Assembly (NCBI RefSeq): GCF_002968335.2
Contig: NZ_CP134398.1
Span: 372,001-436,000, forward strand
Source of the DNA: Mycobacterium sp. ITM-2016-00316
GTDB taxonomy: Bacteria; Actinomycetota; Actinomycetes; Mycobacteriales; Mycobacteriaceae
DNA length: 64,000 nucleotides
Reading direction: 5' to 3'
Position numbers and translations under genes: made by a program. The notes beneath the pieces were generated by a model, which saw only the letters and a list, made by a program, of their open reading frames with translations, did not search any database and had not been told where the DNA came from. Positions 5,350-21,556 of this stretch are shown here, piece after piece; position 1 is the first letter of the stretch; each line of letters begins with the position of its first letter.

Positions 5350-6692
5350 CAGACGCTCGCCCCGTGCGGCACGGGAGTGTCCATCGCGGCCTTGTCGGCC
5401 AGCATGCGCTCCCGAGGTCCCCAGGTTTCGCGGGTGAGAATCGCCGCGATCAGGCCGATGGCCATGTAGGCGCTGAAGAGCAGGGCCGGGCCGGTCCAGC
5501 CGTAGGCCTCGTACAGCAGGGTGGTGACGAAGGGAGTGAAGCCCGAGGCGATCGCCGAGATCTGGTAGGCCAGAGAGGCACCCGAGGAGCGGGTGTTCGC
5601 GTTGAACAGTTCGGGGAACCATCCGCCCTGCGAACCGGCGAGCGCGTTCTGGAACACGCCGTAGGCGATGACGAACGTCGCGACGATGAGAATGAACACA
5701 CCGGTGTTGACCAGCATGAACATCAGCACGCCGAACGGTATGCCCAACGCGCACACCCAGAGGTAGAGCGGACGGCGACCGATCTTGTCGGTGAGTTTTG
5801 CCCAGGCGAAGGTGGCGAAGATGCCGACCGCCGATGCGATGCACAGGGCGCCGATGGTCTGGGACCTGGTCGCGAGTTCGGCGTTCTTCAGGTAGGACAG
5901 CATGTAGGTGATGGACACCGCGTAGCCGGCCGTTTCGGCGATGCGAAGGCCGATGCCGCGCAGAATGTTTCGCCAGTCGGTCTTGACGACCTCGACGATC
6001 GGCGACTTGATGATGTTGCCTTCGTTCTTGACGTCCTCGAACACCGGGGATTCGGGCACCTTGGCCCGGATGATCAGGCCGACGATGACCAGGACGGCGC
6101 TTGCGAGGAACGGCACCCGCCACGCCCAATCGCCACCGAGGTGGATGCTGAAGAAGAACACGAGGTTGGCGATGAGCAGTCCGACGGGGAATCCGGCCTG
6201 CACGATGCCGGTATAGCGGCCCTTCTTCTTCCACGGAGCGTGCTCGTAGCTCATCAGGATGGCGCCACCCCACTCGGCACCGAACGCGAGACCTTGGATG
6301 ATGCGCACGGTCACCAGCAGGATCGGGGCAAGCACGCCGACGGTCTCGTAGGTCGGCAGCAATCCGATGGCGAACGTGGCCAGACCCATGAGGATCAGCG
6401 AGGCGACCAGAACCGGCTTGCGCCCTATCTTGTCACCGAGGTGGCCGCCGATGATGCCACCGAGGGGCCGGGCGACGAACCCGACGCCGAGCGTCGCGAA
6501 CGCCAGCAGAGTGCCTGTCACCGGGCTGGAGTTCGGGAAGAAGGCGGTACCGAAGTACAGCGCGGCTGCCGTGCCGAACCCGATGAAGTCGTAGGTTTCG
6601 ATGACAGCTCCGACACCGGAGCCGATCGCTACCCGCTTGGCGTCCTTGGTGCCATGCACCGGACCCCGCATCTTCAGAGCGTCGTCGCTCAT
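5349..6692 (-). CDS. MFS transporter, MHS (metabolite:H+ symporter) family
   Basis: 447-aa, 12-helix permease. Seen: the N-terminal GSGVGAVIETYDFIGFGTAAAL helix and GHLGDKIGRKPVL (the MFS loop 2-3 motif), features of the MHS/ShiA/ProP branch. I prefer the ATG at 6692 because GAAAGGA precedes it by 8 nt; the ATG at 6701 touches that ribosome site. It is the first gene of the operon transporter - tktN - tktC - gntR, so it probably imports the polyol or sugar handled here. The upstream region carries GntR operators. Confidence 0.87.
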   Translation of the reverse strand: MSDDALKMRGPVHGTKDAKRVAIGSGVGAVIETYDFIGFGTAAALYFGTAFFPNSSPVTGTLLAFATLGVGFVARPLGGIIGGHLGDKIGRKPVLVASLILMGLATFAIGLLPTYETVGVLAPILLVTVRIIQGLAFGAEWGGAILMSYEHAPWKKKGRYTGIVQAGFPVGLLIANLVFFFSIHLGGDWAWRVPFLASAVLVIVGLIIRAKVPESPVFEDVKNEGNIIKSPIVEVVKTDWRNILRGIGLRIAETAGYAVSITYMLSYLKNAELATRSQTIGALCIASAVGIFATFAWAKLTDKIGRRPLYLWVCALGIPFGVLMFMLVNTGVFILIVATFVIAYGVFQNALAGSQGGWFPELFNANTRSSGASLAYQISAIASGFTPFVTTLLYEAYGWTGPALLFSAYMAIGLIAAILTRETWGPRERMLADKAAMDTPVPHGASV

Positions 6693-6747
6693 GGTGGACA
6701 TCCTTTCAAATCCAGTTCTACCTGGTGTTCCTACTGGCCATTCCGGT

Positions 6748-6856
6748 CACTGTTGACGGTCAACAGTGCGGTGCGTCACCCAGTGTGAGCACGCCCACAG
6801 TGAATGTCAACAGTCAACATAAATGAAGTGTCGCCCGTTGACTGTTAACAGTTGAC
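6748..6856. promoter_or_regulatory. GntR operator array in divergent promoter region
   Basis: Three related elements lie between the transporter and isomerase operons. A perfect 21-bp palindrome spans 6748-6768 with arms CACTGTTGAC / GTCAACAGTG around one G. GTCAACA is repeated head to tail at 6806-6819. At 6837-6856, ACTGTTAACAGT is flanked by GTTG and TGAC. The half-site TGTTGAC matches the site next to the gntR gene. A cooperative repressor controlling both divergent transcripts is the simplest reading. Confidence 0.7.
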
Positions 6857-6901
6857 TGGGTTACTGTGTCAGTCATCACAACGCAGGAGGTGACGGGGTA
6901 A

Positions 6902-7738
6902 GTGACATCGACAGGCCGCTTCAGCACCAGGCTCGGCTGCTCGACCATCAGTTTTCGGCACCAGGATCTGGCTCGGGCGCTGGCGACGATTGCCGGCCTC
7001 GGCTTCACCGAGATCGACCTGGGCGCGCTGCCCGGCGTCTGCGACCACGTCCCGTACGTGCTCGATGAGGCCGCCCTCGAGGCGGTGTCCGAGACGGTCA
7101 CCGCGTCCGGCCTGGCGGTGCGATCCATCAACGGCGATATCGGCGACCTGAACGCGATGTTGGACACCGAGCAGCAGCGCGCCCGCCTGCGCCACCTGAC
7201 CATGCTGGTCGCCCTCGCATCGGCCACCGGTGCCCGTGCGCTGGTGCTGCCCTGCGGGGCGCTGGCCCATGCGCCGGTGTCCACGTTGGACGAAGACCTG
7301 GACCTGGTCGCCGACGAACTCACCGCCGCCGCGCATATCGCCGCCGGTGCACGGGTCGAGCTCTGGACCGAATCACTGCATTTTTACCGGCTGTGCTGCG
7401 ACATCGACCGGGCTCAGGCCTTGCATGAACGACTCGACGCCCGGGTGGGCATCGTGATGGATTTCAGCCACATCGTGGCCTCCGGCGGCGACCCGGTGGA
7501 CTACATCGGCCGGATCGGCGCGCGCATCGCGCACGTCCACATCCGCGATGCCGTGCCCGGGAACATCAACCTCTCGGTGGGCAACGGGGCCGTCGACTTC
7601 GGCCGCGGACTCAAGGCACTGGCCGACGCCGGCTACACCGGCCACTTCTCGCTGGAGCTGGAAACCCGAGATGTCACCCATGACGAACGGCCCGCGGTGA
7701 CTGTCGCTGCCGGCCAACTGATTTCCGAACTGATCTAG
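6902..7738 (+). CDS. TIM-barrel sugar/ketose isomerase (xylose isomerase-like, hydroxypyruvate isomerase family)
   Basis: 278-aa AP_endonuclease_2-type TIM barrel. Metal ligands of this fold can be placed: WTESLHF, VGIVMDFSHIV, HVHIRDA and a C-terminal LELETRD strand. GTG start with AGGAGG 11 nt upstream. It heads the operon isomerase - SDR - DhaK/DhaL kinase - RpiB. In erythritol/threitol pathways (EryH/LerI class) such an enzyme converts L-erythrulose-1-phosphate to D-erythrulose-4-phosphate; in apiose pathways a similar fold isomerises D-apiose. The sequence alone does not decide. Confidence 0.82.
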   Translation: MTSTGRFSTRLGCSTISFRHQDLARALATIAGLGFTEIDLGALPGVCDHVPYVLDEAALEAVSETVTASGLAVRSINGDIGDLNAMLDTEQQRARLRHLTMLVALASATGARALVLPCGALAHAPVSTLDEDLDLVADELTAAAHIAAGARVELWTESLHFYRLCCDIDRAQALHERLDARVGIVMDFSHIVASGGDPVDYIGRIGARIAHVHIRDAVPGNINLSVGNGAVDFGRGLKALADAGYTGHFSLELETRDVTHDERPAVTVAAGQLISELI

Positions 7739-8549: not shown

Positions 8550-10268
8550 ATGACACGTCTGTTCAACGACCCGGCCACCTTCGCCGAGGACATGCTCGCC
8601 GGCTTCCTGGACGCCAACTCGCACTATGTGGTGGGTGTGCCGGGCGGCGTGGTGCGCGCCACCGAGACGCCGGCGGGCAAGGTGGCGGTCGTCGTCGGCG
8701 GCGGCTCGGGCCACTACCCCGCGTTCTGCGGGGTGGTCGGGCACGGCTTCGCCGACGGCGCGGTGGTGGGCAACATCTTCACCTCCCCGTCGGCGCAGGA
8801 GGCCGCCTCGGTGGCCCGCGCCGCGCACGGCGACGCGGGCGTGCTGCTGCTCACCGGCAACTACGCCGGCGATGTGATGAACTTCGGCCTCGCGGTCACC
8901 GCGCTGCGGGCCGAGGGCATCGACGCCCGCTATCTGGGCGTCACCGACGATATTGCCAGCGCCACAGCAGAAGACATCGGGAAGCGACGCGGGATCGCCG
9001 GAGATTTCACCGTGTTCCGTTGTGCCGGCGCGGCGGCGCAAGAGGGCACCGATCTCGACGGCGTCGAACGGGTGGCCGTCAAGGCCAATGCGGCTACTCG
9101 CACCCTGGGCGTGGCGTTCGAGGGGTGCACCCTGCCCGGTGCGGACCGGCCGCTGTTCGTCGTCGCCGAGGGCCAGATGGATCTGGGCCTGGGTATCCAC
9201 GGTGAACCCGGAGTGGCCAGCCACGCGATGCCGACGGCCGCCGAACTCGCCGACCTGCTGGTCACCGGAGTGCTGGCCGAGAAGCCGGCGGGGTCATCCG
9301 AGCGAATCGCGGTGATCCTCAACGGTTTGGGCCGCACCAAGTACGAAGAGTTGTTCGTGGTGTGGAACACGGTGGCGGCCAGGCTTGCCGAATCGGGCCA
9401 TGCCGTGGTGTCACCCGAGGTGGGCGAACTGGTCACCAGCCTCGACATGGCGGGCTGCTCACTGACCGTGATGTGGCTCGATGACGAACTGGAGCGGTTG
9501 TGGACCGCACCGGCGGATACGCCCGCCTATCGCAAGGGCGCGGTGACGGCCGGCGCCGGGACCCGGCGTGCCGATGACGTCGCCGATGCTGTTGCGCGAC
9601 AGACCATCGCGGGGGACGCGGAGTCGCAGAAGGTGGCCGCACTTGTGGCCCAGGGGCTTTCGTGTGTCGCCGCGCAGATGGTGACGGCGGAGCACGAACT
9701 CGGGCGCATCGACGCGGTCGCCGGGGACGGTGACCACGGGCGCGGCATGGTCAAGGGCACCACGGCGGCTGCCGACGCCGCCGCCGACGCCGTGAACTCG
9801 GGCGGCGGAACCGCCTCGGTGCTGACCGCGGCCGGCGAGGCGTGGGCGGCCAAGGCCGGCGGTACGTCCGGCGTGCTGTGGGGCGCGGCGCTCTGTGCGG
9901 CCGGCGCGGCGCTGGGCAACCGCGGTGTACCCGGTGGACGGGAGATTGCCTCGGCGCTGCGGGCCGGGCATGACGCGCTGGTGGCGCTGGGCCACGCCGA
10001 GCGCGGTGACAAGACCATGCTCGATGCGCTGGGCCCCTTTCTCGATTCGTTCGAAGCTGCCATCGACGCCGGAACCGGCTGGCGCACAGCGTGGCTCGAA
10101 TCCGTGGAAACTGCCCAGAAGGCGGCCGTCGAGACGGCCGACCTTCGGCCCAAGGTCGGCCGGGCCCGACCACTGGCAGAACGCAGCGTCGGCACCCCCG
10201 ACGCGGGCGCCATCTCACTGGCCATGTGTGTCCACACCGTGGCCGAACTGATCGAGGAGAATGCATGA
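8550..10268 (+). CDS. DhaK-DhaL fused dihydroxyacetone/tetrulose kinase
   Basis: 572-aa ATP-dependent ketose kinase. Residues about 1-330 form the DhaK domain ([28 protein letters not shown]); the substrate-binding histidine is in GIHGEPG. Residues about 370-570 form the DhaL ATP-binding domain with the Mg motif [11 protein letters not shown]. The single-chain arrangement is typical of ATP-dependent kinases rather than of the PEP-dependent three-subunit system. Relatives phosphorylate dihydroxyacetone, L-erythrulose (LerK in M. smegmatis) or other short ketoses. The TIM-barrel isomerase and RpiB-like neighbours favour a tetrulose. It overlaps the next gene by ATGA. Confidence 0.88.
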
Positions 10269-10726
10269 CCCTGCGCGTGGTGATCGGCTGCGATGACGCC
10301 GGACTGCAGTACAAGGATGTTCTGCGTGGCGACCTGGAGTCGGACCCGCGGGTGGACTCCGTGGTCGATGTGGGCGTCGGCCCCGATGAACACACCGCCT
10401 ACCCGCACGTGGCGGTCACCGCGGCCCGCATGGTGGCCGAGGGGCGGGCCGACCGGGCGCTGCTGATCTGCGGGACCGGCCTCGGGGTGGCCATCGCCGC
10501 CAACAAGGTGCCCGGCGTGCGGGCGGTCACCGCCCACGACAGCTTCTCGGTGGAACGCGCGGTCCTCAGCAACAACGCCCAGGTGCTGTGCTTCGGTCAG
10601 CGGGTCGTGGGTGTCGAGTTGGCCCGCCGGCTGGCGGCCGAATGGCTGGGCTACCAGTTCGATCCGGCCTCCGCCTCGGCGGAGAAGGTCGCCGCCATCT
10701 GTGGGTACGAACCGCAGAACGTGTGA
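10265..10726 (+). CDS. RpiB/LacAB-type sugar phosphate isomerase
   Basis: 153-aa aldose-ketose isomerase. The active site reads [23 protein letters not shown], with a cysteine at the position of the catalytic Cys of E. coli RpiB. The housekeeping mycobacterial RpiB instead uses a glutamate further along this loop, so this is a separate lineage, closer to the EryI/DerI type that interconverts D-erythrulose-4-phosphate and D-erythrose-4-phosphate. The start overlaps the kinase stop (ATGA). Its product would feed the split transketolase encoded on the other arm. Confidence 0.87.
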
Positions 10727-10749
10727 CGGGGTAGCGGGCATCCGGCCCC

Positions 10750-10775
10750 CACGGCACGGCTAGGGTTGTGCCGTG
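10750..10775 (+). promoter_or_regulatory. Probable leaderless promoter and hairpin at the TenA start
   Basis: TAGGGT (10761-10766) matches the mycobacterial -10 pattern and ends 6 nt before the GTG start at 10773, so transcription may begin at the start codon. The inverted repeat CACGGCAC / GTGCCGTG (10750-10757, 10768-10775) spans the same region and includes the start codon. Confidence 0.4.
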
Positions 10776-11942
10776 TCCGATGACCTCTGGACGGCTGCCA
10801 CCCGGCACCCGTTCCTCGACGCGGTGCGTGACGGCACCATCACCGATGCGGCCTTCGACAAGTGGCTACGCCAGGATGCGCTGTTCGTGGCCGACCTGCT
10901 GATCTTCCAAGCCCGGCTTCTTGCCCGGGCGCCCCGTGCCGCCCAGCAGGTGCTGGTCGGTGGATGTGCCGCGCTGGTGGCCGAGCTGGACTGGTTCGAG
11001 GAGCAGGCGGTGCGACGCGGCATCGATCTGAACGCCGAGCCGCTGCCCGCCACGCTGGCCTACCGGGAGCTGCTGCAGCGTCTCGATGACGAGCCCTATG
11101 CCGCCGCAATCACCGCCCTGTGGGTCATCGAGCGGGTCTATCTGCTCGGTTGGACCTCCGCCGCGCCCGCCGCGGCGCCACTCGATGAGTTCGTCGAACA
11201 CTGGACGACGCCCGATTTCGCCGGGTATGTCGAGGAGCTGGGCGCCCTCGCGTCGCCGGGTGAGCATGCGGAACAGGTCGATGCGGTGCTCAAGCTTCGA
11301 GGTGGCCTTCTGGGATATGGCGCTGGCATGACGCTGTCTGCTCAGTTGTGGTCGGAGAACGCCGATATCACCGCCGAGGTGTTGGCCAACCCGTTCGTCC
11401 GCGGGATCGGGGACGGAACCCTTACGCGGGAGCTGTTCGCCGGCTACATCGCCCAGGATGCGTTCTTTCTCGAATCCTTCGCCCGTGCATACGCTTTGGC
11501 GCTGGCTCGTAGCACCGACACCGAGACGCTGCTCACGTTCGCCGATCTACTGGCCGGCGTTCGGGAGGAACTGGGCCTGCATGCCAGTTACGCGGCGTCC
11601 TGGGGCATCGACATGGCCGGGGTCACGCCGGCCGCCGCAACGCTGGCCTACACCGAGTTCCTGCTGGCGACCGCGGCGACCGGAGGTCTGGGGGAGATGT
11701 GTGCGGCGATGACGCCGTGCATGCGGCTGTACGCCCACATCGGGTCCCAGCTGGACGCGGGTACCGCGGGGCCGTACGCGCAGTGGGTGCAGACCTATGC
11801 CGACCCCGGTTTCGAGGAGATCGCCGCGCTGTTGGAACGGCTCCTCGATCGGCTCGGCGACGACAGCACGACCATTCGGCGGGCGTACCGGCGCGCGATG
11901 CGGCTGGAACTGGAGTTTTTCGCCGCCGCGTACGGGGCCTGA
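10773..11942 (+). CDS. Tandem TenA/Thi-4 family protein
   Basis: 389-aa protein made of two TenA-like helical domains. Domain 1 (about 1-190) shows HPFLDAVRDGTITDAAFDKW and QDALFVADLLIFQARL. Domain 2 (about 205-389) shows NPFVRGIGDGTLTRELFAGY, QDAFFLESFARAYALAL, and MTPCMRLYAHIG with the cysteine position typical of thiaminase II-type TenA, then PYAQWVQTYADPGF. Domain 1 has no such cysteine. TenA proteins hydrolyse aminopyrimidines for thiamine salvage; single-domain members are about 220 aa, so the duplication is unusual. The neighbourhood contains a TPP-dependent transketolase, which hints at a cofactor link. Confidence 0.82.
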   Translation: MSDDLWTAATRHPFLDAVRDGTITDAAFDKWLRQDALFVADLLIFQARLLARAPRAAQQVLVGGCAALVAELDWFEEQAVRRGIDLNAEPLPATLAYRELLQRLDDEPYAAAITALWVIERVYLLGWTSAAPAAAPLDEFVEHWTTPDFAGYVEELGALASPGEHAEQVDAVLKLRGGLLGYGAGMTLSAQLWSENADITAEVLANPFVRGIGDGTLTRELFAGYIAQDAFFLESFARAYALALARSTDTETLLTFADLLAGVREELGLHASYAASWGIDMAGVTPAAATLAYTEFLLATAATGGLGEMCAAMTPCMRLYAHIGSQLDAGTAGPYAQWVQTYADPGFEEIAALLERLLDRLGDDSTTIRRAYRRAMRLELEFFAAAYGA

Positions 11943-12771: not shown

Positions 12772-12783
12772 TGACTCAAGTCA
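12772..12783. promoter_or_regulatory. Operator copy 1 (TGACT-N2-AGTCA)
   Basis: TGACTCAAGTCA: perfect 5-bp arms around CA, between the divergent DJ-1/PfpI and tetR genes. It is the first of three matching sites (also 13548 and 14324), all in intergenic promoter positions around this TetR gene. Confidence 0.6.
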
Positions 12784-12897: not shown

Positions 12898-13500
12898 ATG
12901 GCTGTGGTGAACGGCCCTTCGGCGCGCGAGGCGAAGCGTCTGCAGACCCGCGAGCGCCTGATGGGCGCCGCAGTCGCCGAGTTCAAGCGGTCCGGGATGG
13001 CCGAGGCCGATGTCGCCGCCATCGTGGCGGCTGCCGGGGTGGCCCATGGCACCTTCTTCTTCCATTTCCCCACCAAGGAGCACGTTCTCCTGGAACTGGA
13101 GAAGCGCGAAGAAGACCGGATGGCCAAGCAGTTCGGCCGATACCTCGAAAAGGGCCACGACCTGGAATCGGCGCTGTCCGAAGCGGTGCGGTTGGTGCTG
13201 GGGCTGGAGCGCCGCCTCGGCGACGTCCTGTTCAAGGATTTCCTGGCGTTGCACTTCTCGCAGACGCGCCCGGATTCCGAGGACGGCGGTGACCACTCGC
13301 TGGTTCTGCTGCTGGCCCAGCGCATCGAGCGGGCCCGGTCCGAGGGGCAGGTGGATCCCGAGGTCCAGTCGATCAACAGTGCGGTGTTCTTCCTGCTGTG
13401 CCTCTACGCGCTGGCGATCACCACCAATGACCCGATGCGCCAGGACCTGCTCGACGATCTGGTCAAACGCACCATGCGGAGCGTCGCCGCCGCGGGATGA
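12898..13500 (+). CDS. TetR family regulator of the MP/NorQD locus
   Basis: 200-aa TetR protein. HTH at about residues 14-60: RERLMGAAVAEFKRSGMAEADVAAIVAAAGVAHGTFFFHF is split across helices 1-3, ending in the FFFHFPTKE recognition segment. Start at 12898 because GGAG lies 6-7 nt upstream; 21 further codons upstream are open but unsupported. It stands directly before MP1. TGACT-N2-AGTCA palindromes occur upstream of itself, of MP1 and of the microprotein/NorD/NorQ operon, making it the likely repressor of all three. The effector is unknown. Confidence 0.87.
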   Translation: MAVVNGPSAREAKRLQTRERLMGAAVAEFKRSGMAEADVAAIVAAAGVAHGTFFFHFPTKEHVLLELEKREEDRMAKQFGRYLEKGHDLESALSEAVRLVLGLERRLGDVLFKDFLALHFSQTRPDSEDGGDHSLVLLLAQRIERARSEGQVDPEVQSINSAVFFLLCLYALAITTNDPMRQDLLDDLVKRTMRSVAAAG

Positions 13501-13547
13501 GCCGGCGCCATCCCCGGGGGCTGATGCTTGTCCGGCGAGCATTTGCA

Positions 13548-13559
13548 TGACTAGAGTCA
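13548..13559. promoter_or_regulatory. Operator copy 2 (TGACT-N2-AGTCA)
   Basis: TGACTAGAGTCA with perfect arms, ending 6 bp before the MP1 start codon. The position leaves no room for a ribosome site, so MP1 may be leaderless with the operator covering its transcription start. Confidence 0.6.
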
Positions 13560-13565
13560 GTCAAC

Positions 13566-14258
13566 ATGCGATCGTCAGCCGCTTCGGCGACCCTGTCTCT
13601 GGACGAGCAGATGGAGGAGTCGCGACTGGCTCAGCGCCAGGCGGACCGGTGGTTGATCAGCGGCAGCATCCTGATCGGCACTGCCGCGTTGGGCATCTTC
13701 GGTCTGCCGTTGTTTCTCCGGGGTGTGTGGCTGCTGCGCCGGGCGCAGCACAACGGATTGTCGGTGCGGCCGATGATGGTCACCCTGCTCGGGTACCTGG
13801 TCATCATCGACGCGGCGATCAACACCGTCGGATGGGCGCTCGACCTGATCGGTAGCCACACGCTGCTGGCGAGGGTGTTGTTGAACGGTTGGGGCCACAT
13901 GTTCGACGCCGGATACTTCTGGCATTTCAACGAACTCTGGGTCGGTGGGGCGTCCGGGCCGGGCGAGAAGGCGATGGAAGTCGGGATGATCCTCACGGTG
14001 TTCACCATGCGGATCGCGGCCGCGATCGGGTTCCTGCAGATGAAGCGTTGGGGTCAGCAGTGGATGATCGTCACGTGCTGGATGGGCGTGGTCATCTGGG
14101 TGCTCTACGTGTTCAACATGACGATGTTCGCCGACGTGCGGTTCGCGGGAACCATCTTCCCCGTCGTGGGCTGGTGGCTCTACGACATCTTCTACATCAC
14201 CCCGTTTCTCGCGATCCCGTATCTGCATACCGTGAACCGCGAAATATTCACTGACTGA
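13566..14258 (+). CDS. Five-helix membrane protein MP1, function unknown
   Basis: 230-aa integral membrane protein that I cannot assign. About five hydrophobic segments (roughly 29-58, 68-96, 138-157, 165-188, 195-220). A polar, metal-ligand-rich loop reads GWGHMFDAGYFWHFNELW (H111, D114, H120, E123), and the chain ends HTVNREIFTD (H221, E226, D230). These residues, plus D82, D93 and H98, are identical in the paralogue MP2 at 17148, while the N-terminal part varies more. No CXXC, heme-binding CXXCH or transporter motif is visible. The presence of NorQ/NorD-type activation genes in the same locus suggests a membrane metalloenzyme. Preceded by a TGACT-N2-AGTCA operator. Confidence 0.8.
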   Translation: MRSSAASATLSLDEQMEESRLAQRQADRWLISGSILIGTAALGIFGLPLFLRGVWLLRRAQHNGLSVRPMMVTLLGYLVIIDAAINTVGWALDLIGSHTLLARVLLNGWGHMFDAGYFWHFNELWVGGASGPGEKAMEVGMILTVFTMRIAAAIGFLQMKRWGQQWMIVTCWMGVVIWVLYVFNMTMFADVRFAGTIFPVVGWWLYDIFYITPFLAIPYLHTVNREIFTD

Positions 14259-14323
14259 TGTCACCAGGCCGTCCGCAAGATCGGCTTCGAGCAGTTCATT
14301 CAGCGGCGGTCATGGATCTCTAT

Positions 14324-14335
14324 TGACCTAAGTCA
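14324..14335. promoter_or_regulatory. Operator copy 3 (TGACC-N2-AGTCA) and likely promoter
   Basis: TGACCTAAGTCA differs from the other two copies by one base in the left arm. It overlaps a -35-like TTGACC (14323-14328) upstream of the microprotein - norD - norQ operon. Confidence 0.55.
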
Positions 14336-14464
14336 GTCAGTGAAGTAGAAAAGGAACATCATGTCGCCAAAGGTGCAGCCGCCGCTGCGTCACGTGCACA
14401 GGTTTCCGGCGCCGGGGCGCACCGCCACCGACGCCGGCGGATCCCCGAAACGCCGTGCTCGACA

Positions 14465-14512
14465 GGCGGGTTTCCTCCGCGGCACGCGGTGTGCAGATCC
14501 GATGAAACCGCC
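14465..14512 (+). promoter_or_regulatory. Structured 5' leader hairpin before the microprotein gene
   Basis: GGCGGGTTTC (14465-14474) pairs with GAAACCGCC (14504-14512), leaving one bulged G. A second stem, CCGCG-GCA-CGCGG (14477-14489), is nested inside. The structure ends 3 nt before GAGGAGG, the ribosome site of the gene at 14530. This suggests translational control or an RNA element; no known riboswitch class was recognised. Confidence 0.4.
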
Positions 14513-14529
14513 AACGAGGAGGTTCGACC

Positions 14530-14634
14530 GTGGACTATCTGTGGGAGGTCTTGCGCTACGTCGCAGCCTGGGGCGGCACCGGCCTGGTCATCTGGTTCTG
14601 GTACTGGATGTTCTCCAACATCGGCACCTTCTGA
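14530..14634 (+). CDS. 34-aa single-helix membrane microprotein
   Basis: GTG start with a near-perfect GAGGAGG ribosome site 7 nt upstream. The product is 34 residues: MDYLWEVLRYVAAWGG, then a tryptophan-rich hydrophobic helix (about 11-29, TGLVIWFWYWMF), ending SNIGTF. It resembles small accessory subunits of membrane enzyme complexes. It precedes the NorD-like gene by 33 bp. Function unknown. A second microprotein (17020) lies before MP2, so each membrane-protein module may have one. Confidence 0.7.
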   Translation: MDYLWEVLRYVAAWGGTGLVIWFWYWMFSNIGTF

Positions 14635-14667
14635 ACCGAGCGCACGTGGGTCCTCCGGGAACCGTCC

Positions 14668-16200
14668 ATGGCTGACCTCGACGACACCTCGGCGATGGCG
14701 CTGGAACGCAGCTGCTCGCTCACCGCGGTCGCACTGAGCGGCGAGCAGCGCGCGGGTGTCCGCCTGGTCACCGGAGCGCACCGCGGTTTCGGCCTGAACT
14801 CGTCGCGCACCTTCATCCACGTCCCCTACCCGCAGCTCGGAGCCGACTGGACCCGGCGCTCCCTGACATGCGGTATCGCCCTGCAATGTTCGTCATCGAA
14901 GGACCGGGTCGGCGAATACCGGATCGACGAATTGTCTGCCCGCGAGCTACGCGCGCTGGCCCTCGTCGAGGCGGCTGTCGCGCTGGGCTGGATCGCTTCG
15001 CGCTGGCCCGGGCTGATGCCTGAATGCCGCCGGCTGCTGCCCGAACTGGAGCCGGCCGACCTCCAATTGGATGCCCACACGATGATCAGCCGCGCGATCG
15101 AACTCGCCCGCAGCGCCGACGGGCTCACCGTCCACCCGCTGCTGGGGCGGCTGCCCGCGATCTACACGACACCGACAGGCCTGGTCGACAAGCTACGGCG
15201 GCAGTTCGGCAGGATGCCGTGGACCACCACGCAGCAACGGATGCCGCGGCCCTACTCGGTGCCGGTGGGCGGTGACGGCGGTGTACGCAATCCCAACCTG
15301 CCGCCACCGAGCCGGCCACAGGACAACGACATGGATGTCACCCCCGAGCACCGGCCCGGGATCCCGTACCCGGAGTGGAACGCCTGGACGAAACGCTTCC
15401 TGCCCGATCATGTAGCGGTTCTGGAACTGGCCCGCGACCGCCGTGTCGACCCCGCGAAAACGGACTCGGTCGATCTACGCGCATGGTTCCAGAAGAACAC
15501 CCACCGCGCCATGACCGCTCGCCTGGAGGACGGCTCGGACCTCGATATCGACCAATACGTGCGCCATTTCATCGATCTGCGCACCGGTGAAGCGGCCGAG
15601 CCGCGCCTGTTCCGGGAACTGCTGCCCAGCAACCGCGATGTCAGCACCGCGCTGCTGCTGGACGGCAGCTCGTCGCTGGGGGTGCACGGTGGCAGGGTGT
15701 TCCGGCTGGAGCTGGCCTGCGCGGATGCGTTGTCGCGGGCGATGACCCAGGCCCGGGAACGTCACGGCATCTTCGTGTTCACCGGCAACACCCGCCATCG
15801 CGTGGAAGTGCGCTGCCTCAAGGACTTCCCGGAGGCGCGGTTCGTCCCGCCCAGCGGACTGGGACTGTCCACCGGCGGCTACACCCGCCTCGGTGCACCC
15901 ATCCGTCACCTGACCGCCCGGCTGCTCGCGCAACCCTCGGAACGGCGGCTGCTCATCATCGTCGGGGACGGGATGATCTCCGATGAGGGCTACGAGGGCC
16001 GCTACGCATGGTCGGACGCCGCGCATGCGGTCGAGGAGGCCAACGAGGCGGGCGTGAGCGTCTACTACGTCGGTGTGGGGCCGGCCCGGGTCGACCCGCT
16101 GCCCGAGGTGTTCGGACCCAAACGTTCACAACGCATCCGGCGAATCGAAGAGCTGCCCCGCGTGCTCGCACACGTACACCGGGAGCTCGTCAGCGCATGA
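14668..16200 (+). CDS. norD-like: NorD/CbbO-like VWA-domain protein
   Basis: 510-aa protein with a C-terminal von Willebrand A domain. The MIDAS motif DGSSS begins at D332 (TALLLDGSSSLG), followed by a GGYTRLG loop and LLIIVGDGMISDEGY. The N-terminal 250 residues are variable, as in NorD and CbbO. These proteins partner a MoxR-class AAA+ ATPase (NorQ, CbbQ) to insert or reactivate the metal centre or conformation of a client enzyme (NO reductase, Rubisco). No nitric oxide reductase or Rubisco gene is present here; the membrane proteins are the likely clients. The stop is 14 bp before the norQ-like start. Confidence 0.85.
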   Translation: MADLDDTSAMALERSCSLTAVALSGEQRAGVRLVTGAHRGFGLNSSRTFIHVPYPQLGADWTRRSLTCGIALQCSSSKDRVGEYRIDELSARELRALALVEAAVALGWIASRWPGLMPECRRLLPELEPADLQLDAHTMISRAIELARSADGLTVHPLLGRLPAIYTTPTGLVDKLRRQFGRMPWTTTQQRMPRPYSVPVGGDGGVRNPNLPPPSRPQDNDMDVTPEHRPGIPYPEWNAWTKRFLPDHVAVLELARDRRVDPAKTDSVDLRAWFQKNTHRAMTARLEDGSDLDIDQYVRHFIDLRTGEAAEPRLFRELLPSNRDVSTALLLDGSSSLGVHGGRVFRLELACADALSRAMTQARERHGIFVFTGNTRHRVEVRCLKDFPEARFVPPSGLGLSTGGYTRLGAPIRHLTARLLAQPSERRLLIIVGDGMISDEGYEGRYAWSDAAHAVEEANEAGVSVYYVGVGPARVDPLPEVFGPKRSQRIRRIEELPRVLAHVHRELVSA

Positions 16201-16213
16201 CATCAGGAGTCAG

Positions 16214-17005
16214 ATGAGCAGCGAGACATACTATTCCAGCGGCAACGTGGTGCAGCTCTTCGAGCAGGCATTCACCCGCAAGATCCCGGTCATGCTCACC
16301 GGGCCGACCGGGTGCGGCAAGACCCGATTCGTCGAACACATGGGATCCCTGCTCGGCCGACCCGTCGTCACCATCAGCTGCCACGATGACCTGACCAGCT
16401 CCGATCTCGTTGGCCGCTTCATGGTCACCGGCGGCGACGTGATCTGGACCGACGGGCCACTCACCAGAGCCGTCAAGACCGGGGCCATCTGCTACCTCGA
16501 CGAGGTCGTCGAGGCACGCCACGACTCGCTGGCCATCCTGCACTCATTGACCGACCACCGCCGCACCCTGTATCTGGATCGCGCGGATGAAGTCGTCACG
16601 GCGCCGGAGGAATTCATGCTGGTGTGCTCCTACAACCCCGCCTACCGCAGCTCACTGAAGCAGCTCAAGCCGTCCTTCCGGCAGCGTTTCGCCACCCTGC
16701 CGATGAACTATCTACCGCCGGAACGGGAGGCCGAAGCCGTCGTGTCCGAGGCCGGTATCGACGTGGCGGCAGCCCGGCGGCTCGTCAACTGCGCCAACGC
16801 CATCCGCACCGCCGATGAGGCCTTCCACTTCGAGCCGCCGTCGACGCGGGTGCTCGTCACCGCAGCCCAACTGATCGCCGCCGGTGCCGGCGAATTGGAA
16901 GCCGCCGAAGCGTGCATCCTCGCACCACTGAGCAGCGACGGAGCCATCAATGAGGGGCTCCGGGAGATCGCGGCGGCCGGGCTACTGGCCACCGACACAC
17001 TCTGA
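16214..17005 (+). CDS. norQ-like: NorQ/CbbQ/NirQ-like AAA+ ATPase (MoxR class)
   Basis: 263-aa AAA+ protein. Walker A GPTGCGKT at residues 30-37, Walker B AICYLDEVVEA, sensor 1 in LVCSYNPAYR, and the arginine-finger region SFRQRFATLPMNYLPPERE. The C-terminal helical part matches the CbbQ_C layout. AGGAG lies 4 nt before the ATG. Family knowledge: it forms hexamers that work with a VWA partner, here the gene just upstream, to activate a metalloenzyme. It sits in an operon with two microproteins, MP2, a further membrane protein, two dehydrogenases and a P450. Confidence 0.9.
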   Translation: MSSETYYSSGNVVQLFEQAFTRKIPVMLTGPTGCGKTRFVEHMGSLLGRPVVTISCHDDLTSSDLVGRFMVTGGDVIWTDGPLTRAVKTGAICYLDEVVEARHDSLAILHSLTDHRRTLYLDRADEVVTAPEEFMLVCSYNPAYRSSLKQLKPSFRQRFATLPMNYLPPEREAEAVVSEAGIDVAAARRLVNCANAIRTADEAFHFEPPSTRVLVTAAQLIAAGAGELEAAEACILAPLSSDGAINEGLREIAAAGLLATDTL

Positions 17006-17019
17006 GAGGGGATTTCACC

Positions 17020-17151
17020 ATGGTCGATCAGAAAGAGAAGAAGCGTAAGCGGGCGCTCATCGTGTTCCAGATCGCCATCTACGGCTACCTGCTCACGATG
17101 TTCCTCATCCAGCTCTACATGTCCTTCGAACGCGGCTGGTGGTATCTGTGA
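17020..17151 (+). CDS. 43-aa single-helix membrane microprotein
   Basis: ATG with GAGAGGGG 8 nt upstream. The 43-residue product starts with a charged stretch (MVDQKEKKRKR), then one hydrophobic helix (about 12-34, IVFQIAIYGYLLTMFLIQLY), and ends SFERGWWYL. Positive-inside charge predicts a cytoplasmic N-terminus. Its stop overlaps the MP2 start (GTGA), so it is translationally coupled to MP2 and is probably a small subunit or assembly factor for it. Confidence 0.75.
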   Translation: MVDQKEKKRKRALIVFQIAIYGYLLTMFLIQLYMSFERGWWYL

Positions 17152-17837
17152 GCCTGGCTGTCGGCGGTTCCGTCAGCCTGGAGGACCACGGCGAGGAGTC
17201 CCGGCTCGCCCAGCGACGAGCCGACAAATGGATGATCGTCGGTGCCGCGCTCATGGGCATGTGGGTACCGGGGTTGATCGGCTTCCCGATCTTCATGCGT
17301 GGCGTGTGGCTGCAACGGCAGGCGGCGCGCGCCGGACTGTCGGTGCGCCCGATGATCGTCACCCTGATCGGCTACCTGGTGCTGATCGACGGAATGCTCA
17401 ACAGCCTGGGCTGGGCGCTGGACCTGGTCGCCAATCACACCCTGATCAACCGGGTTCTGATGGTCGGCTGGGGCCACATGTTCGACGCCGGATACTTCTG
17501 GCACTACAACGAACTCTGGATCGGCGGCGCCGCGGGACCCGGCGAGAAGGCCATGGTGGCCGGCATGATCATCACGGTCTTCGCCATGCGGTGCGCCGCG
17601 GCCATCGGATTCCTGCAGATGAAGCGCTGGGGCCACCAGTGGATGATCGTCACCTGCTGGATGGGCGTGGTGATCTGGACCGTCTACGTCTTCAACATGA
17701 CGATGTTCGCCGACGTCCGGTTCGCGGGCGTCATCTTCCCGGTCATCGGTTGGTGGCTCTACGACATCTTCTACATCACCCCGTTCCTCGCGATCCCGTA
17801 CCTGCACACGGTGAATCGCGAGATCTTCACGGACTGA
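17148..17837 (+). CDS. Five-helix membrane protein MP2, paralogue of MP1
   Basis: 229-aa paralogue of MP1, with about 75% visible identity. The loop GWGHMFDAGYFWHYNELWIGG and the last stretch YITPFLAIPYLHTVNREIFTD (split here as YITPFLAIPYLHT / VNREIFTD) are essentially unchanged. The conserved His/Asp/Glu set is the same as in MP1, so both are probably active and share a cofactor site. The start is the GTG at 17148 overlapping the microprotein stop; an ATG-less extension upstream is unlikely. It lies between the NorQ-like ATPase and a 135-aa membrane protein. Function unknown. Confidence 0.8.
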   Translation: MSLAVGGSVSLEDHGEESRLAQRRADKWMIVGAALMGMWVPGLIGFPIFMRGVWLQRQAARAGLSVRPMIVTLIGYLVLIDGMLNSLGWALDLVANHTLINRVLMVGWGHMFDAGYFWHYNELWIGGAAGPGEKAMVAGMIITVFAMRCAAAIGFLQMKRWGHQWMIVTCWMGVVIWTVYVFNMTMFADVRFAGVIFPVIGWWLYDIFYITPFLAIPYLHTVNREIFTD

Positions 17838-17849
17838 AGGAGTGACACC

Positions 17850-18257
17850 GTGACAACACCGCAACCCGAAACAACCGCCGAGGATTTGCCGCCGGGCACC
17901 ACGCCCTATTACGCGCGGATGCACAGGTACATCAAGCGTGCCGTGCTGGTCTGTCTGATCGCGCTGGTCATCGAGGGGGCCTTCACGCTGCCGTTCATGG
18001 CGGTCTACTACGGCTACCCGACGCTGAGCCTCACCCAGATCTGCAGTGAACTTCTCAAGGTGCGCTACTCCGATGACGCCCTGGAGTGCAAGTTCCCCTA
18101 CCCGCCGCTGGGACCGCCGGAAGGCGCCGAGGGCAAGGACACCGCCCGGGATGTCTGGGGAATACAGCCCATCCCGCAGTACGACCGGCTCGGATTCCGG
18201 GAATTGGTCGACCGCTATGAGGCACGCCAGGCCCGGCTCGCCGAACAAGGCGGCTGA
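17850..18257 (+). CDS. Small membrane-anchored protein, function unknown
   Basis: 135-aa protein with one strong transmembrane helix (about 31-55, [19 protein letters not shown]) after a hydrophilic N-terminus, then an extracytoplasmic or soluble tail with two cysteines (QICSELLK and LECKFPYPP) and a Pro-rich segment. GTG start with AAGGAG 7 nt upstream. It follows MP2 by 12 bp and precedes a DapB-like dehydrogenase by 1 bp, so it is an integral part of this operon. The two cysteines may form a disulfide. No homologous family was recognised. Confidence 0.75.
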
Positions 18258-18258
18258 G

Positions 18259-19332
18259 ATGGGTTCAAAGCTGCGGGTGATCCAGTGGGCCACCGGCAAC
18301 GTCGGCACCCACGCGTTGGCCGCCGTGCACGACCATCCCGACCTCGAACTCGTCGGCGCCCGGGTGTACAACGAGGCGAAGGCAGGCCGCGATATCGGCG
18401 ATGTCGCCGGAATCGGCGAGACCGGCGTCCTGGCCACCACCGATGTCGACGAGATCCTCGCGCTCGACGCCGACTGCGTGCTGTACATGGCCGAGGGCGA
18501 GTGGAATCCACCCGTCGCGCTGGACGATATCTGCCGGCTGCTGGCCTCGGGGAAGAACGTGGTGTCCACCGCCGTCACCGCGTGGATCTACCCGCAGAGC
18601 GCCGGCGACGACGTGGCGCAGCGCCTGGAGACAGCCTGCCAGGAGGGCCGGAGTTCTTTCCACGCCACCGGAATTCAACCGGGCTGGGCTGCGGAGGTGC
18701 TCCCGCTGACGATGTCCGGACTGTTCCGGCACATCGACTCGCTGCTGGTGCAGGAGCTGATGGACTACTCCACCTACAACGTGCCGTTCGTATTGTTCGA
18801 GGTGATGGGCTTCGGCAAACCACCCGATGAGCGGGTGCCGATGGACGAGGCTGCGATCGGCGGACTGTCCTTCAAAGCGCCGCTCATGCTGCTGGCGGAG
18901 GGCCTGGGCGCCACCATCGACGACTACATCTGGGAGCGCGAGGTGGCGGTCACCGACACACCGATCGATGTCAAGGCCGGCCGCATCGAGGCGGGAACCG
19001 TTTCTGCGCAGCGCTTTTCCTATACCGCGGTGATCGAGGGCAGGCGGGCACTGACCGTCGAACACATCACCCGACTCGGCGCCGAGCAGGCGCCGGACTG
19101 GCCGAACGGGCGAGGCTGGAAGGTGACCGTCGAGGGGGCGCCGTCGATGGTGCTGGAATCCCGGATCGCCATCCACGACGAGGATGACACCGATCAGGGG
19201 TGCCTGGGCACCGCGATGCATGCCGTCCACGCGATCGCTCCGGTCTGCGCCGCCGCGCCGGGGATCCGCACCTTCCTGGACCTGCCCACCATCGTGGGCC
19301 GCGGTGTGCTGTCGAAAGGCTTGAGGCGATGA
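18259..19332 (+). CDS. DapB-like NAD(P)-dependent dehydrogenase 1
   Basis: 357-aa member of the dihydrodipicolinate-reductase-like / 2,4-diaminopentanoate-dehydrogenase-like group common in mycobacteria. The Rossmann start reads RVIQWATGNVGTHALAAV, followed by the LVGARVY strand. These proteins are not the lysine-pathway DapB: they are longer, with a different C-terminal domain, and they often neighbour oxygenases. It may oxidise or reduce an oxygenated product made by the operon's oxygenase(s). Overlaps the next dehydrogenase gene by ATGA. Confidence 0.82.
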   Translation: MGSKLRVIQWATGNVGTHALAAVHDHPDLELVGARVYNEAKAGRDIGDVAGIGETGVLATTDVDEILALDADCVLYMAEGEWNPPVALDDICRLLASGKNVVSTAVTAWIYPQSAGDDVAQRLETACQEGRSSFHATGIQPGWAAEVLPLTMSGLFRHIDSLLVQELMDYSTYNVPFVLFEVMGFGKPPDERVPMDEAAIGGLSFKAPLMLLAEGLGATIDDYIWEREVAVTDTPIDVKAGRIEAGTVSAQRFSYTAVIEGRRALTVEHITRLGAEQAPDWPNGRGWKVTVEGAPSMVLESRIAIHDEDDTDQGCLGTAMHAVHAIAPVCAAAPGIRTFLDLPTIVGRGVLSKGLRR

Positions 19333-20378
19333 GCTATCGGGTGATCCAGTGGATGACCGGCGATGTCGGACAGGTCGGTGTGCGGCATCTCGCCGACAAT
19401 CCGGTGTTCGATCTCGTTGGGGTGCTGGTGCATTCCCCGGAGAAGGTGGGTATGGACGCCGGCGAGATCGTCGGCATCGAGCCCACCGGAGTGATCGCCA
19501 CCGATGATGTCGACGCCGTCCTGGCCCTCGACGCCGACTGCGTGTTCTACACCCCGATCATCATGGACGTCGCCACCGTCTGCCGAATTCTGCGCTCCGG
19601 TAAGAACCTGGTCACCACCAGCGGGTTCTTCTATCCGTCACCGGATTTCGCGGATCCCGGCGAACAGATTCGCGCCGCGTGCACCGATGGCGGCACTTCG
19701 TTTCACGGCGGCGGCATCCACCCCGGGTATGCCGGAGATGTCCTTCCGCTCACCCTGGCCCGGGTGATGAGCCGGATCGACAGCATCCAGGTCTACGAGG
19801 TCGTCGACGTCCTCAAGGATGCGCCGCTGGACCATATCGACTGGATGGGGTTCGGCAAGGACAAGGACACGTTCCTCACCGAGCCGACGATTCTCGGGCT
19901 CGGACTGCCGTTCTTCGCGCAATCGATGTACATGATCGCCGACGGTCTCGGTGTCACCATCGACGAGGTGACCGCCGCCGAGATCGACGTGGCGACGGCA
20001 CGGGAACCCATTGCGCACGACGAGGGCGCGATCGCGGTCGGCACGGTGGCCGCGCAGCGACACGAATGGACGGCGTGGGTGAACGGCCGGCCACTCATCG
20101 TCTTCCACGCCATCTATGTCACCGCGGGGCCGGACAAACTGGATCCGCCGTGGGACTGGGGCGAGACCCGCTACGAGATCGTCATCGACGGGGATCCGCC
20201 GACCGAACTGACCCTCAAGGGCGTCAGCAGGCCGGACGGGACGATGAGCCATCCCGGCTATGACTGGACCGCGATGGGTGCCATCAACACCATCCCCGCG
20301 GTGTGCGATGCCGCACCCGGCTGGGTCACCCATCTGGATCTGGGACTGGTGCGGCCGCGTGGACTGGTCCGGCCGTGA
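19329..20378 (+). CDS. DapB-like NAD(P)-dependent dehydrogenase 2
   Basis: 349-aa paralogue of the preceding gene, with the same RVIQWMTGDVGQVGVRHL cofactor motif and LVGVLVHSPEKVGMDAGEI stretch; the latter matches the third copy at 55022 more closely than dehydrogenase 1 does. A tandem pair may form a heteromer or act on successive intermediates. The start overlaps the stop of dehydrogenase 1 (ATGA) and the stop overlaps the P450 start (GTGA), so all three proteins are translationally coupled. Substrate unknown. Confidence 0.82.
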   Translation: MSYRVIQWMTGDVGQVGVRHLADNPVFDLVGVLVHSPEKVGMDAGEIVGIEPTGVIATDDVDAVLALDADCVFYTPIIMDVATVCRILRSGKNLVTTSGFFYPSPDFADPGEQIRAACTDGGTSFHGGGIHPGYAGDVLPLTLARVMSRIDSIQVYEVVDVLKDAPLDHIDWMGFGKDKDTFLTEPTILGLGLPFFAQSMYMIADGLGVTIDEVTAAEIDVATAREPIAHDEGAIAVGTVAAQRHEWTAWVNGRPLIVFHAIYVTAGPDKLDPPWDWGETRYEIVIDGDPPTELTLKGVSRPDGTMSHPGYDWTAMGAINTIPAVCDAAPGWVTHLDLGLVRPRGLVRP

Positions 20379-21556
20379 CCGATACGCAGGAGTACCTGGA
20401 GCTTCCACACATCCGGTATGAAGATCTCCCGATGACGCGCGATCGCGGGGTGGGGTGGTCGGCGCTGCGCGGCCTCGGCCCCGTCGTGCGCGGTGATGGT
20501 TGGTATTACCTGACCCGGCGCGAGGATGTGCTCGGCGCCTTGCGCAGTCCGGAGGTCTTCTCGTCCGGCATCGCCTATGACGACATGATCAGCCCGGTCC
20601 CTTTGGTGCCGCTCGGTTTCGATCCCCCGGAGCACACCCGATACCGGCGCATCCTGCACGAGTACTTCAGTCCACAGACCCTCGGCCCACTCCTGCCGTC
20701 CCTGCAGGCCCAGGCCATCGAGATCATCGAGCAGATCGCCGAGCGGGATGAATGCGAGGTGATGGCCGATCTGGCGACCCCATACCCGTCACAGGTATTC
20801 CTTACGCTGTTCGGACTCCCGCTACAGGACCGGGCGAGGCTGGTCGGGTGGAAGGACGCGATCATCGCGCTCAGCCTCACCACCGACCCGTCCAGCGTCG
20901 ATCTCACCCCGGCGGTCGAGCTGTACACGTACCTGGCCGAATCCGTGGCCCAGCAACGGGATCAACCATGCGCGGGGATTCTGTCGGACCTGCTACATGC
21001 GGACGAGCCGCTCACCGACAACGAGGCGGTCGGGCTGTCCATGGTGTTTGTGCTCGCCGGGTTGGACACGGTCACCGCCACCATCGGCGCCACCATGGTC
21101 GAACTGGCGCGTCGGCCTGCGCTTCGACGCTCGCTCCGGGAAAACCCCGACGAGGTGGCGGTGTTCGTGGAGGAGATGGTCCGGCTGGAACCGGCGGCAC
21201 CCGTGCTGGGGCGGGTGACGACCCGGCCGGTGACCGTCGCGGGTGTGACCATTCCGGCTGGCGCCGACGTCCGGTTGTGTATCGCGGCGATCAACCGCGA
21301 TGGCAGCGACGGCTGTTCGGTCGACGACTTCGTGCTGGACGGAAAGCTGCACAAGCACTGGGGTTTCGGCGGCGGACCGCACCGTTGCCTCGGGTCGCAC
21401 CTGGCTCGGATGGAACTCAAGCTGGTCGTCACCGAGTGGCTGGCCCGCATTCCGGACTTCCGTCTGCCGCCCGGCTACATCCCGGAAATCACCTGGCCGT
21501 CCCCGACCTGCAGCCTGCCGCGGCTGCCGTTGTTGCTGGGGCCTGCTCAGAACTGA
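20375..21556 (+). CDS. Cytochrome P450
   Basis: 393-aa soluble bacterial P450. Heme ligand C338 lies in WGFGGGPHRCLG. The I-helix oxygen-activation motif is LAGLDTVTATIG, and the K-helix ExxR is in EEMVRLEPA. GTG start overlapping the dehydrogenase stop; an upstream extension in frame is unsupported. No ferredoxin or ferredoxin reductase gene is adjacent, so electrons must come from elsewhere. As the last gene of the MP2 operon it probably hydroxylates the same substrate class. It converges with an SDR gene, their ends overlapping by 10 bp. Confidence 0.92.
   Translation: MTDTQEYLELPHIRYEDLPMTRDRGVGWSALRGLGPVVRGDGWYYLTRREDVLGALRSPEVFSSGIAYDDMISPVPLVPLGFDPPEHTRYRRILHEYFSPQTLGPLLPSLQAQAIEIIEQIAERDECEVMADLATPYPSQVFLTLFGLPLQDRARLVGWKDAIIALSLTTDPSSVDLTPAVELYTYLAESVAQQRDQPCAGILSDLLHADEPLTDNEAVGLSMVFVLAGLDTVTATIGATMVELARRPALRRSLRENPDEVAVFVEEMVRLEPAAPVLGRVTTRPVTVAGVTIPAGADVRLCIAAINRDGSDGCSVDDFVLDGKLHKHWGFGGGPHRCLGSHLARMELKLVVTEWLARIPDFRLPPGYIPEITWPSPTCSLPRLPLLLGPAQN

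Follow-up and report, generated by a model that had tools for sequence, protein, structure and literature searches.

The closest described relatives of the system reported here are two pairs, each an ATPase with its partner. According to two papers (PMC9976466, PMC13036017), NorQD is needed for FeB insertion into the nitric oxide (NO) reductase cNOR; the first of them gives CbbQ/CbbO, a related pair, a role in Rubisco activation. Only a handful of clients is named for MoxR/VWA (von Willebrand factor A) pairs in the literature that we found. Here we describe a NorQ/NorD-type pair from Mycobacterium sp. ITM-2016-00316 (5.99-Mb genome, single contig), encoded in a 64,000-nucleotide stretch of DNA (the window; NZ_CP134398.1, positions 372,001 to 436,000, forward strand). 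The pair lies within a cassette that also encodes two polytopic membrane proteins (MP1 and MP2), two microproteins (mic1 and mic2) and a smaller membrane protein (M135), and the presumed complex built around the MPs is its likely client. A literature search found no study of this mycobacterial gene set.

NorQ, its VWA partner and their linkage to the MP module

The ATPase matches the Pfam domains AAA_5 and CbbQ_C and, among solved structures, NorQ (PDB 9qh4, E 7e-77) as well as the CbbQ entries 6l1q and 5c3c; its Walker A motif reads GPTGCGKT and its Walker B motif LDE, which bears out the NorQ-type assignment made in a preliminary description of the locus. In the VWA protein, residues 223–510 match the PDB NorD (Table 1), phmmer finding no match to the NorD N-terminal domain before residue 217, and a reading of motifs places a MIDAS-like DxSxS at 332, with T406 and D434. 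Its score against the Pfam VWA model (22.3 bits) is slightly below the cut-off of 23.8. The NorD-type label, with its MIDAS, is upheld by the C-terminal match and these motifs. The absence of the usual clients from the cassette is upheld as well: neither NorB/NorC nor Rubisco appeared among the Pfam matches of the ten cassette proteins scanned.

A search of genome contigs with an MP profile yielded 321 relatives, the best 80 of which were retained, all of them near relatives. The order MP1-mic1-VWA-NorQ-mic2-MP2-M135 is kept in 79 of these 80 loci; L026 begins at a contig end as NorQ-mic2-MP2-M135, and the Aldersonia locus (L051) has a second VWA-NorQ pair further downstream. In another genus of the same family (L092), a single MP occurs in the order TetR-mic1-VWA-NorQ-mic2-MP-M135. 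In another class of the phylum (L007, L091), an MP of 40% identity lies in the order M135-mic1-mic2-MP-VWA-NorQ, with a divergent P450 before the cassette and a kinase-like gene after it; here tblastn located mic1, MP, VWA, NorQ and P450, and the kinase and the equivalents of mic2 and M135 were recognized by eye. Nine of about 18 extra MP places were examined. Seven of them (L108–L112, L114 and L115) are mic1-mic2-MP-M135 modules without a linked NorQ or VWA gene, and the genomes of all seven hold a NorQ elsewhere, 81–83% identical to that of the window. The other two are L113, with NorQ and VWA, and L116, with an MP of 36% identity whose other parts were not found. The preliminary description had counted homologues usually standing apart from NorQ/NorD as evidence against its proposal; near homologues are linked (79/80), these seven extra copies are unlinked, and near the distant L100 and L116 no NorQ or VWA was found. 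MP is present in 6 of 296 genomes sampled across the phylum and in 63 of 118 genomes of the genus (61 with a close relative, two with a distant or partial copy only).

The host genome carries three further NorQ genes (L117, L118 and L119, near 5.756, 2.929 and 4.752 Mb), each with a VWA-like gene beside it, as judged by eye, and a match to PF17198, the AveC-like 'spirocyclase' family, nearby; the genome's fourth PF17198 match stands apart from any NorQ. Across 41 genomes of the genus, in which NorQ was counted at E up to 1e-40, 73 NorQ genes were found: 25 beside an MP, 47 within 2.7 kb of an AveC-like gene and one beside neither. NorQ and AveC-like genes occur in the same 31 genomes, neither being found in the others. 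Of the 101 AveC-like genes, 51 have a NorQ no more than 4 kb away. In the phylum at large, 7 of 246 genomes carry AveC-like genes, and all seven are among the 26 with NorQ. Outside the near family, 20 of 23 NorQ places were examined by tblastn; an AveC-like gene was near only L125, and an MP near none.

A 36-row NorQ tree places the MP-type NorQs and that of the distant L091 on one side of a branch supported at 100/100, and the same branch is recovered at 99/100 in a 19-row set. The second NorQ of the L091 genome groups elsewhere, and joining both NorQs of that genome is rejected (p-AU 0.0065). Because the gene order is conserved, a distant version and stand-alone modules exist, and the NorQ tree tracks the client, NorQ and NorD are likely to serve the MP complex. 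The suggestion that MP1 and MP2 are the client is thus supported, with mic1, mic2 and M135 included.

Several loci merit separate mention. On the Mycobacterium branderi plasmid pJCM12687 (L100, 11606–12681), an MP of 34% identity follows a TetR gene and a short one-helix frame; the 82-amino-acid protein before it looks by eye like fused mic1-like and mic2-like helices, its neighbourhood is one of lipid catabolism, and no NorQ or VWA match was found near it. Some way off on either side of the distant L091 cassette lie two polytopic membrane proteins that look alike (6455–7219 and 17850–18662). In G444:C1:366109-366872, the cassette NorQ appears as two overlapping pieces in different frames, with MP places nearby. 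The sole NorQ of the 73 beside neither MP nor AveC-like gene (L143, G443:C22, about 9700–11400) is followed by a gene resembling, by eye, cytochrome oxidase subunit III/NorE, and preceded by P450-like and kinase-like genes.

Features of the cassette proteins

MP1 and MP2 are 74% identical, and MP2 is 100% identical in Mycolicibacterium frederiksbergense LB 501T. No Pfam match was obtained for MP1, MP2, mic1, mic2 or M135 at E up to 1, and nothing above the NCBIfam cut-off for MP1, MP2, mic2 and M135. Comparison of the MP sequence with solved structures gave nothing useful, and comparison with viral predicted structures nothing significant. In an alignment of 46 MPs, Asp81, Asn85, Asp92, Asp113, Asn121 and Glu133 are invariant, and no histidine is: His97 is present in 41, and distant members keep His119 in 1/25, His220 in 4/25 and His163 in 0/25. 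The conserved His/Asp/Glu set proposed earlier therefore stands for Asp and Glu, together with Asn, but not for His.

The predicted model of MP2 contains six long helices, of which five, the number given previously, fall within the range that matches EBP. Its top fold match is EXPERA (EBP, a human sterol isomerase, and the sigma-2 receptor), with sigma-2 receptor rows at ranks 3–5. The EXPERA evidence is sub-threshold: PF05241 matches 16 of the 46 MPs at E up to 5 (best E 0.0015; best score 17.9 bits against a cut-off of 25.7), MP1 and MP2 of the window had no PF05241 match in the Pfam scan, and comparison with two bacterial EXPERA proteins gave a probability of 0.1. In a putative register, EBP His76 would correspond to MP Asp81, EBP Glu80 to MP Asn85 and EBP position 108 perhaps to Glu133. 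The word 'metal' is absent from the text of the EBP structure paper. Clear bacterial EXPERA proteins, with PF05241 above cut-off, occur in two actinobacterial genomes (L093 and L094), and that of L094 matches the sigma-2 receptor (E 4e-7).

Both microproteins behave as genes, because they align without gaps (mic1 in 79 of 80 loci, mic2 in all 80), have no internal stops, and differ between loci least at codon position 2 and most at position 3. By hydropathy, mic2 and M135 have a single segment each, that of M135 as expected of the 135-amino-acid membrane protein first described; since no segment of mic1 rises above the cut, its helix is plausible only, and the earlier 'one-helix' label fits mic2 better than mic1.

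The genes called in the preliminary description are present, with all frames of the cassette open at the coordinates in Table 1. Its 'largely overlapping' series holds for mic2/MP2, for the two DapB-like genes and for the second of these with the P450, but not for MP1, which has gaps around it. Downstream of M135, gene content varies among P450s, DapB-like genes and short-chain dehydrogenases/reductases (SDRs). In an approximate census covering 81 loci, made with a custom gene caller and with families named by resemblance only, two DapB-like families were present in 58 and 54 loci; one SDR family occurred in 44, and three P450 families occurred in 41, 28 and 21. The P450 and dehydrogenases, earlier counted as part of the operon, are thus frequent neighbours but not part of the fixed core. 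A term search of PMC9868604 found no passage on CYP143 function.

The window has the motif TGACYNNAGTCA at three sites, two of which match on both strands, giving five strand matches against 0.11 expected; the motif was found in 79 of 80 loci (L011–L090). Genome-wide it occurs at seven places, with ten strand matches against eight for a reversed control pattern; because the control is nearly as frequent, it is the clustering of sites that carries the evidence. The other four genomic matches fall inside, or at the start of, genes that look unrelated; they seem to be chance hits, so a wider regulon was set aside. TetR would repress the transcription units through the TGACYNNAGTCA sites, and substrate or product would relieve this repression. 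Elsewhere in the window, at about 24.6–31 kb, the genes resemble, by eye, ones for sugar (rhamnose-type) use and look unrelated to the cassette.

Table 1. Cassette genes and operator-like sites, in window coordinates
Feature	Position	Strand	Basis or remark
Operator-like site TGACTCAAGTCA	12772..12783	.	Upstream of TetR
TetR-family regulator, 200 aa	12898..13500	+	Pfam TetR_N, E 9e-11
Operator-like site TGACTAGAGTCA	13548..13559	.	Upstream of MP1
MP1, polytopic membrane protein, 230 aa, MP2 paralogue	13566..14258	+	No Pfam match
Operator-like site TGACCTAAGTCA	14324..14335	+	Upstream of mic1
mic1, 34-aa microprotein, conserved Trp, C-terminal GTF, membrane helix plausible	14530..14634	+	Alignment
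NorD-like VWA protein, 510 aa, MIDAS motifs	14668..16200	+	PDB NorD, E 2e-33, C-terminal part
NorQ-type AAA+ ATPase, 263 aa	16214..17005	+	Pfam, PDB, Walker motifs
mic2, 43-aa one-helix microprotein	17020..17151	+	Alignment, hydropathy
MP2, membrane protein, 229 aa, EXPERA-like predicted fold	17148..17837	+	Structure model
M135, one-helix membrane protein, two conserved Cys, C-x-x-PYP tail	17850..18257	+	Hydropathy, alignment
DapB-like dehydrogenase 1, variable accessory gene	18259..19332	+	Pfam DapB_N + DAP_DH_C
DapB-like dehydrogenase 2, variable accessory gene	19329..20378	+	Pfam DAP_DH_C
Cytochrome P450, variable accessory gene	20375..21556	+	Closest solved structure CYP143, PDB 8amo, E 5e-151

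Possible functions of the MP complex

Tentatively, and with slightly less than even confidence, we favour a reading in which the core cassette is one dedicated system, an MP complex with NorQ/NorD activators, performing acid/base chemistry. MP, mic1, mic2 and M135 would associate in a membrane-embedded enzyme complex. Catalysis would fall to MP, an EXPERA-like bundle of helices in which the six invariant residues presumably line the cavity. The NorQ ring and its VWA partner would remodel and activate this complex using ATP, as NorQD and CbbQO do. The reaction would most likely be an acid/base (carbocation-type) isomerisation, cyclisation or hydration and the substrate lipophilic, terpenoid- or steroid-like, although we hold both assignments weakly; we treat a metal-free isomerisation or cyclisation as a lead, rated a little lower than the reading as a whole. 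Neighbouring P450s, DapB-like dehydrogenases and SDRs would process the same substrate. Our confidence in EXPERA membership is moderate, and on balance we lean towards an EXPERA-like MP. A genome search with PF05241 did not report the MPs, which slightly lowered our estimate for an EXPERA-like fold. The NorQ tree is supportive rather than final, because L091 is a long branch that drew a program warning; a topology that unites its NorQ with those of AveC type and similar ones is not rejected (p-AU 0.072).

A metalloenzyme defined by a conserved histidine set is not supported by the alignment or by the EXPERA fold match. Recast, the MP complex would bind a metal through carboxylates, with His97, His119 and His220 in the near clade, NorQ/NorD would insert it as they do FeB in NO reductase, and an organic substrate would be oxidised together with the P450. 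The reported requirement for NorQD (PMC9976466 and PMC13036017), the invariance of Asp81, Asp92, Asp113 and Glu133 and the frequency of His97 all fit, but the other histidines are mostly lost in distant members and EXPERA is the best fold match; and since CbbQ/CbbO acts in Rubisco activation (PMC9976466), a NorQ/NorD machine alone does not imply metal. An oxidising metalloenzyme, shorn of its histidine argument, is possible and, in our judgement, unlikely. Membership of MP1/MP2 in a known metal-free enzyme family, named earlier as evidence against the proposal, is seen only in part, because the EXPERA evidence is sub-threshold. Alternatively, the MP complex and AveC-like proteins, the two usual NorQ neighbours in the genus, could be two variants within a single family of membrane enzymes that depend on NorQ/NorD, with MP resembling AveC helices 2–6 and M135 the last helix and Cys-Pro tail. 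Helix order looks alike in the two models by eye, both have a D-x3-N helix followed by a helix that begins with an acid, and C-x-x-PYP in M135 recalls CPWPYP in AveC-like proteins. PF17198 is not among the 16 families matched by the 46 MPs, and hhalign found no significant homology of MP with AveC or of M135 with its tail; we consider this split improbable. A Foldseek comparison of an AveC-like model with the PDB gave nothing significant.

A non-enzymatic MP, akin to the sigma-2 receptor/TMEM97, binding sterols or lipids or serving as a transporter subunit and assembled by NorQ/NorD, would suit the sigma-2 receptor fold matches, but the many invariant charged residues and the frequent P450, DapB-like and SDR neighbours make it quite improbable. 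That NorQ/NorD sit in the operon by chance and serve a client elsewhere is suggested by the seven unlinked modules; set against the gene order of 79 loci and a NorQ tree that tracks the client, it is very improbable indeed. Beyond the acid/base reading of the cassette, NorQ/NorD in mycobacteria might be dedicated ATP-driven activators of a class of metal-free membrane isomerases or cyclases, of which the MP complex and AveC-like proteins would be branches of common origin. This conjecture is doubtful; if true, MoxR/VWA machines would activate intramembrane enzymes by changing their conformation rather than by inserting metal.

Comparison with known systems

The MP cassette appears to be a client-activator system common in the genus, where NorQ is also almost perfectly linked to AveC-like genes. 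This points to bacterial proteins of the EXPERA-like and AveC-like kinds being activated in an ATP-dependent manner; we found no paper tying AveC or EXPERA proteins to NorQ/MoxR, subscription papers being outside the search. EBP and the sigma-2 receptor/TMEM97 give MP its best fold match, with a predicted helix order that seems EBP-like and presumed buried acids, but MP scores below the Pfam cut-off and has small extra subunits and ATPase activators. AveC-like proteins are, like MP, usual NorQ neighbours, with, by eye, a similar helix order and Cys-Pro tail; they are single chains, unlike the proposed four-subunit MP complex, and their homology match with MP is not significant. The P450 of the window matches CYP143 of M. 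tuberculosis (8amo), but it ends this operon as an accessory, variable gene. As in the Rubisco activase CbbQ/CbbO, a CbbQ_C domain and a VWA partner are present, with no Rubisco among the Pfam matches. The NO reductase operon norCBQDEF of Paracoccus denitrificans likewise combines a NorQ-family ATPase, a NorD with a C-terminal VWA domain and MIDAS motifs, and a membrane client in the same operon; the cassette differs in having no NorB/NorC, in the unmatched N-terminal part of NorD and in its likely client, which consists of an EXPERA-like protein, two microproteins and M135. The MP complex would offer a second membrane client with which to decide between metal insertion and remodelling by MoxR/VWA machines.
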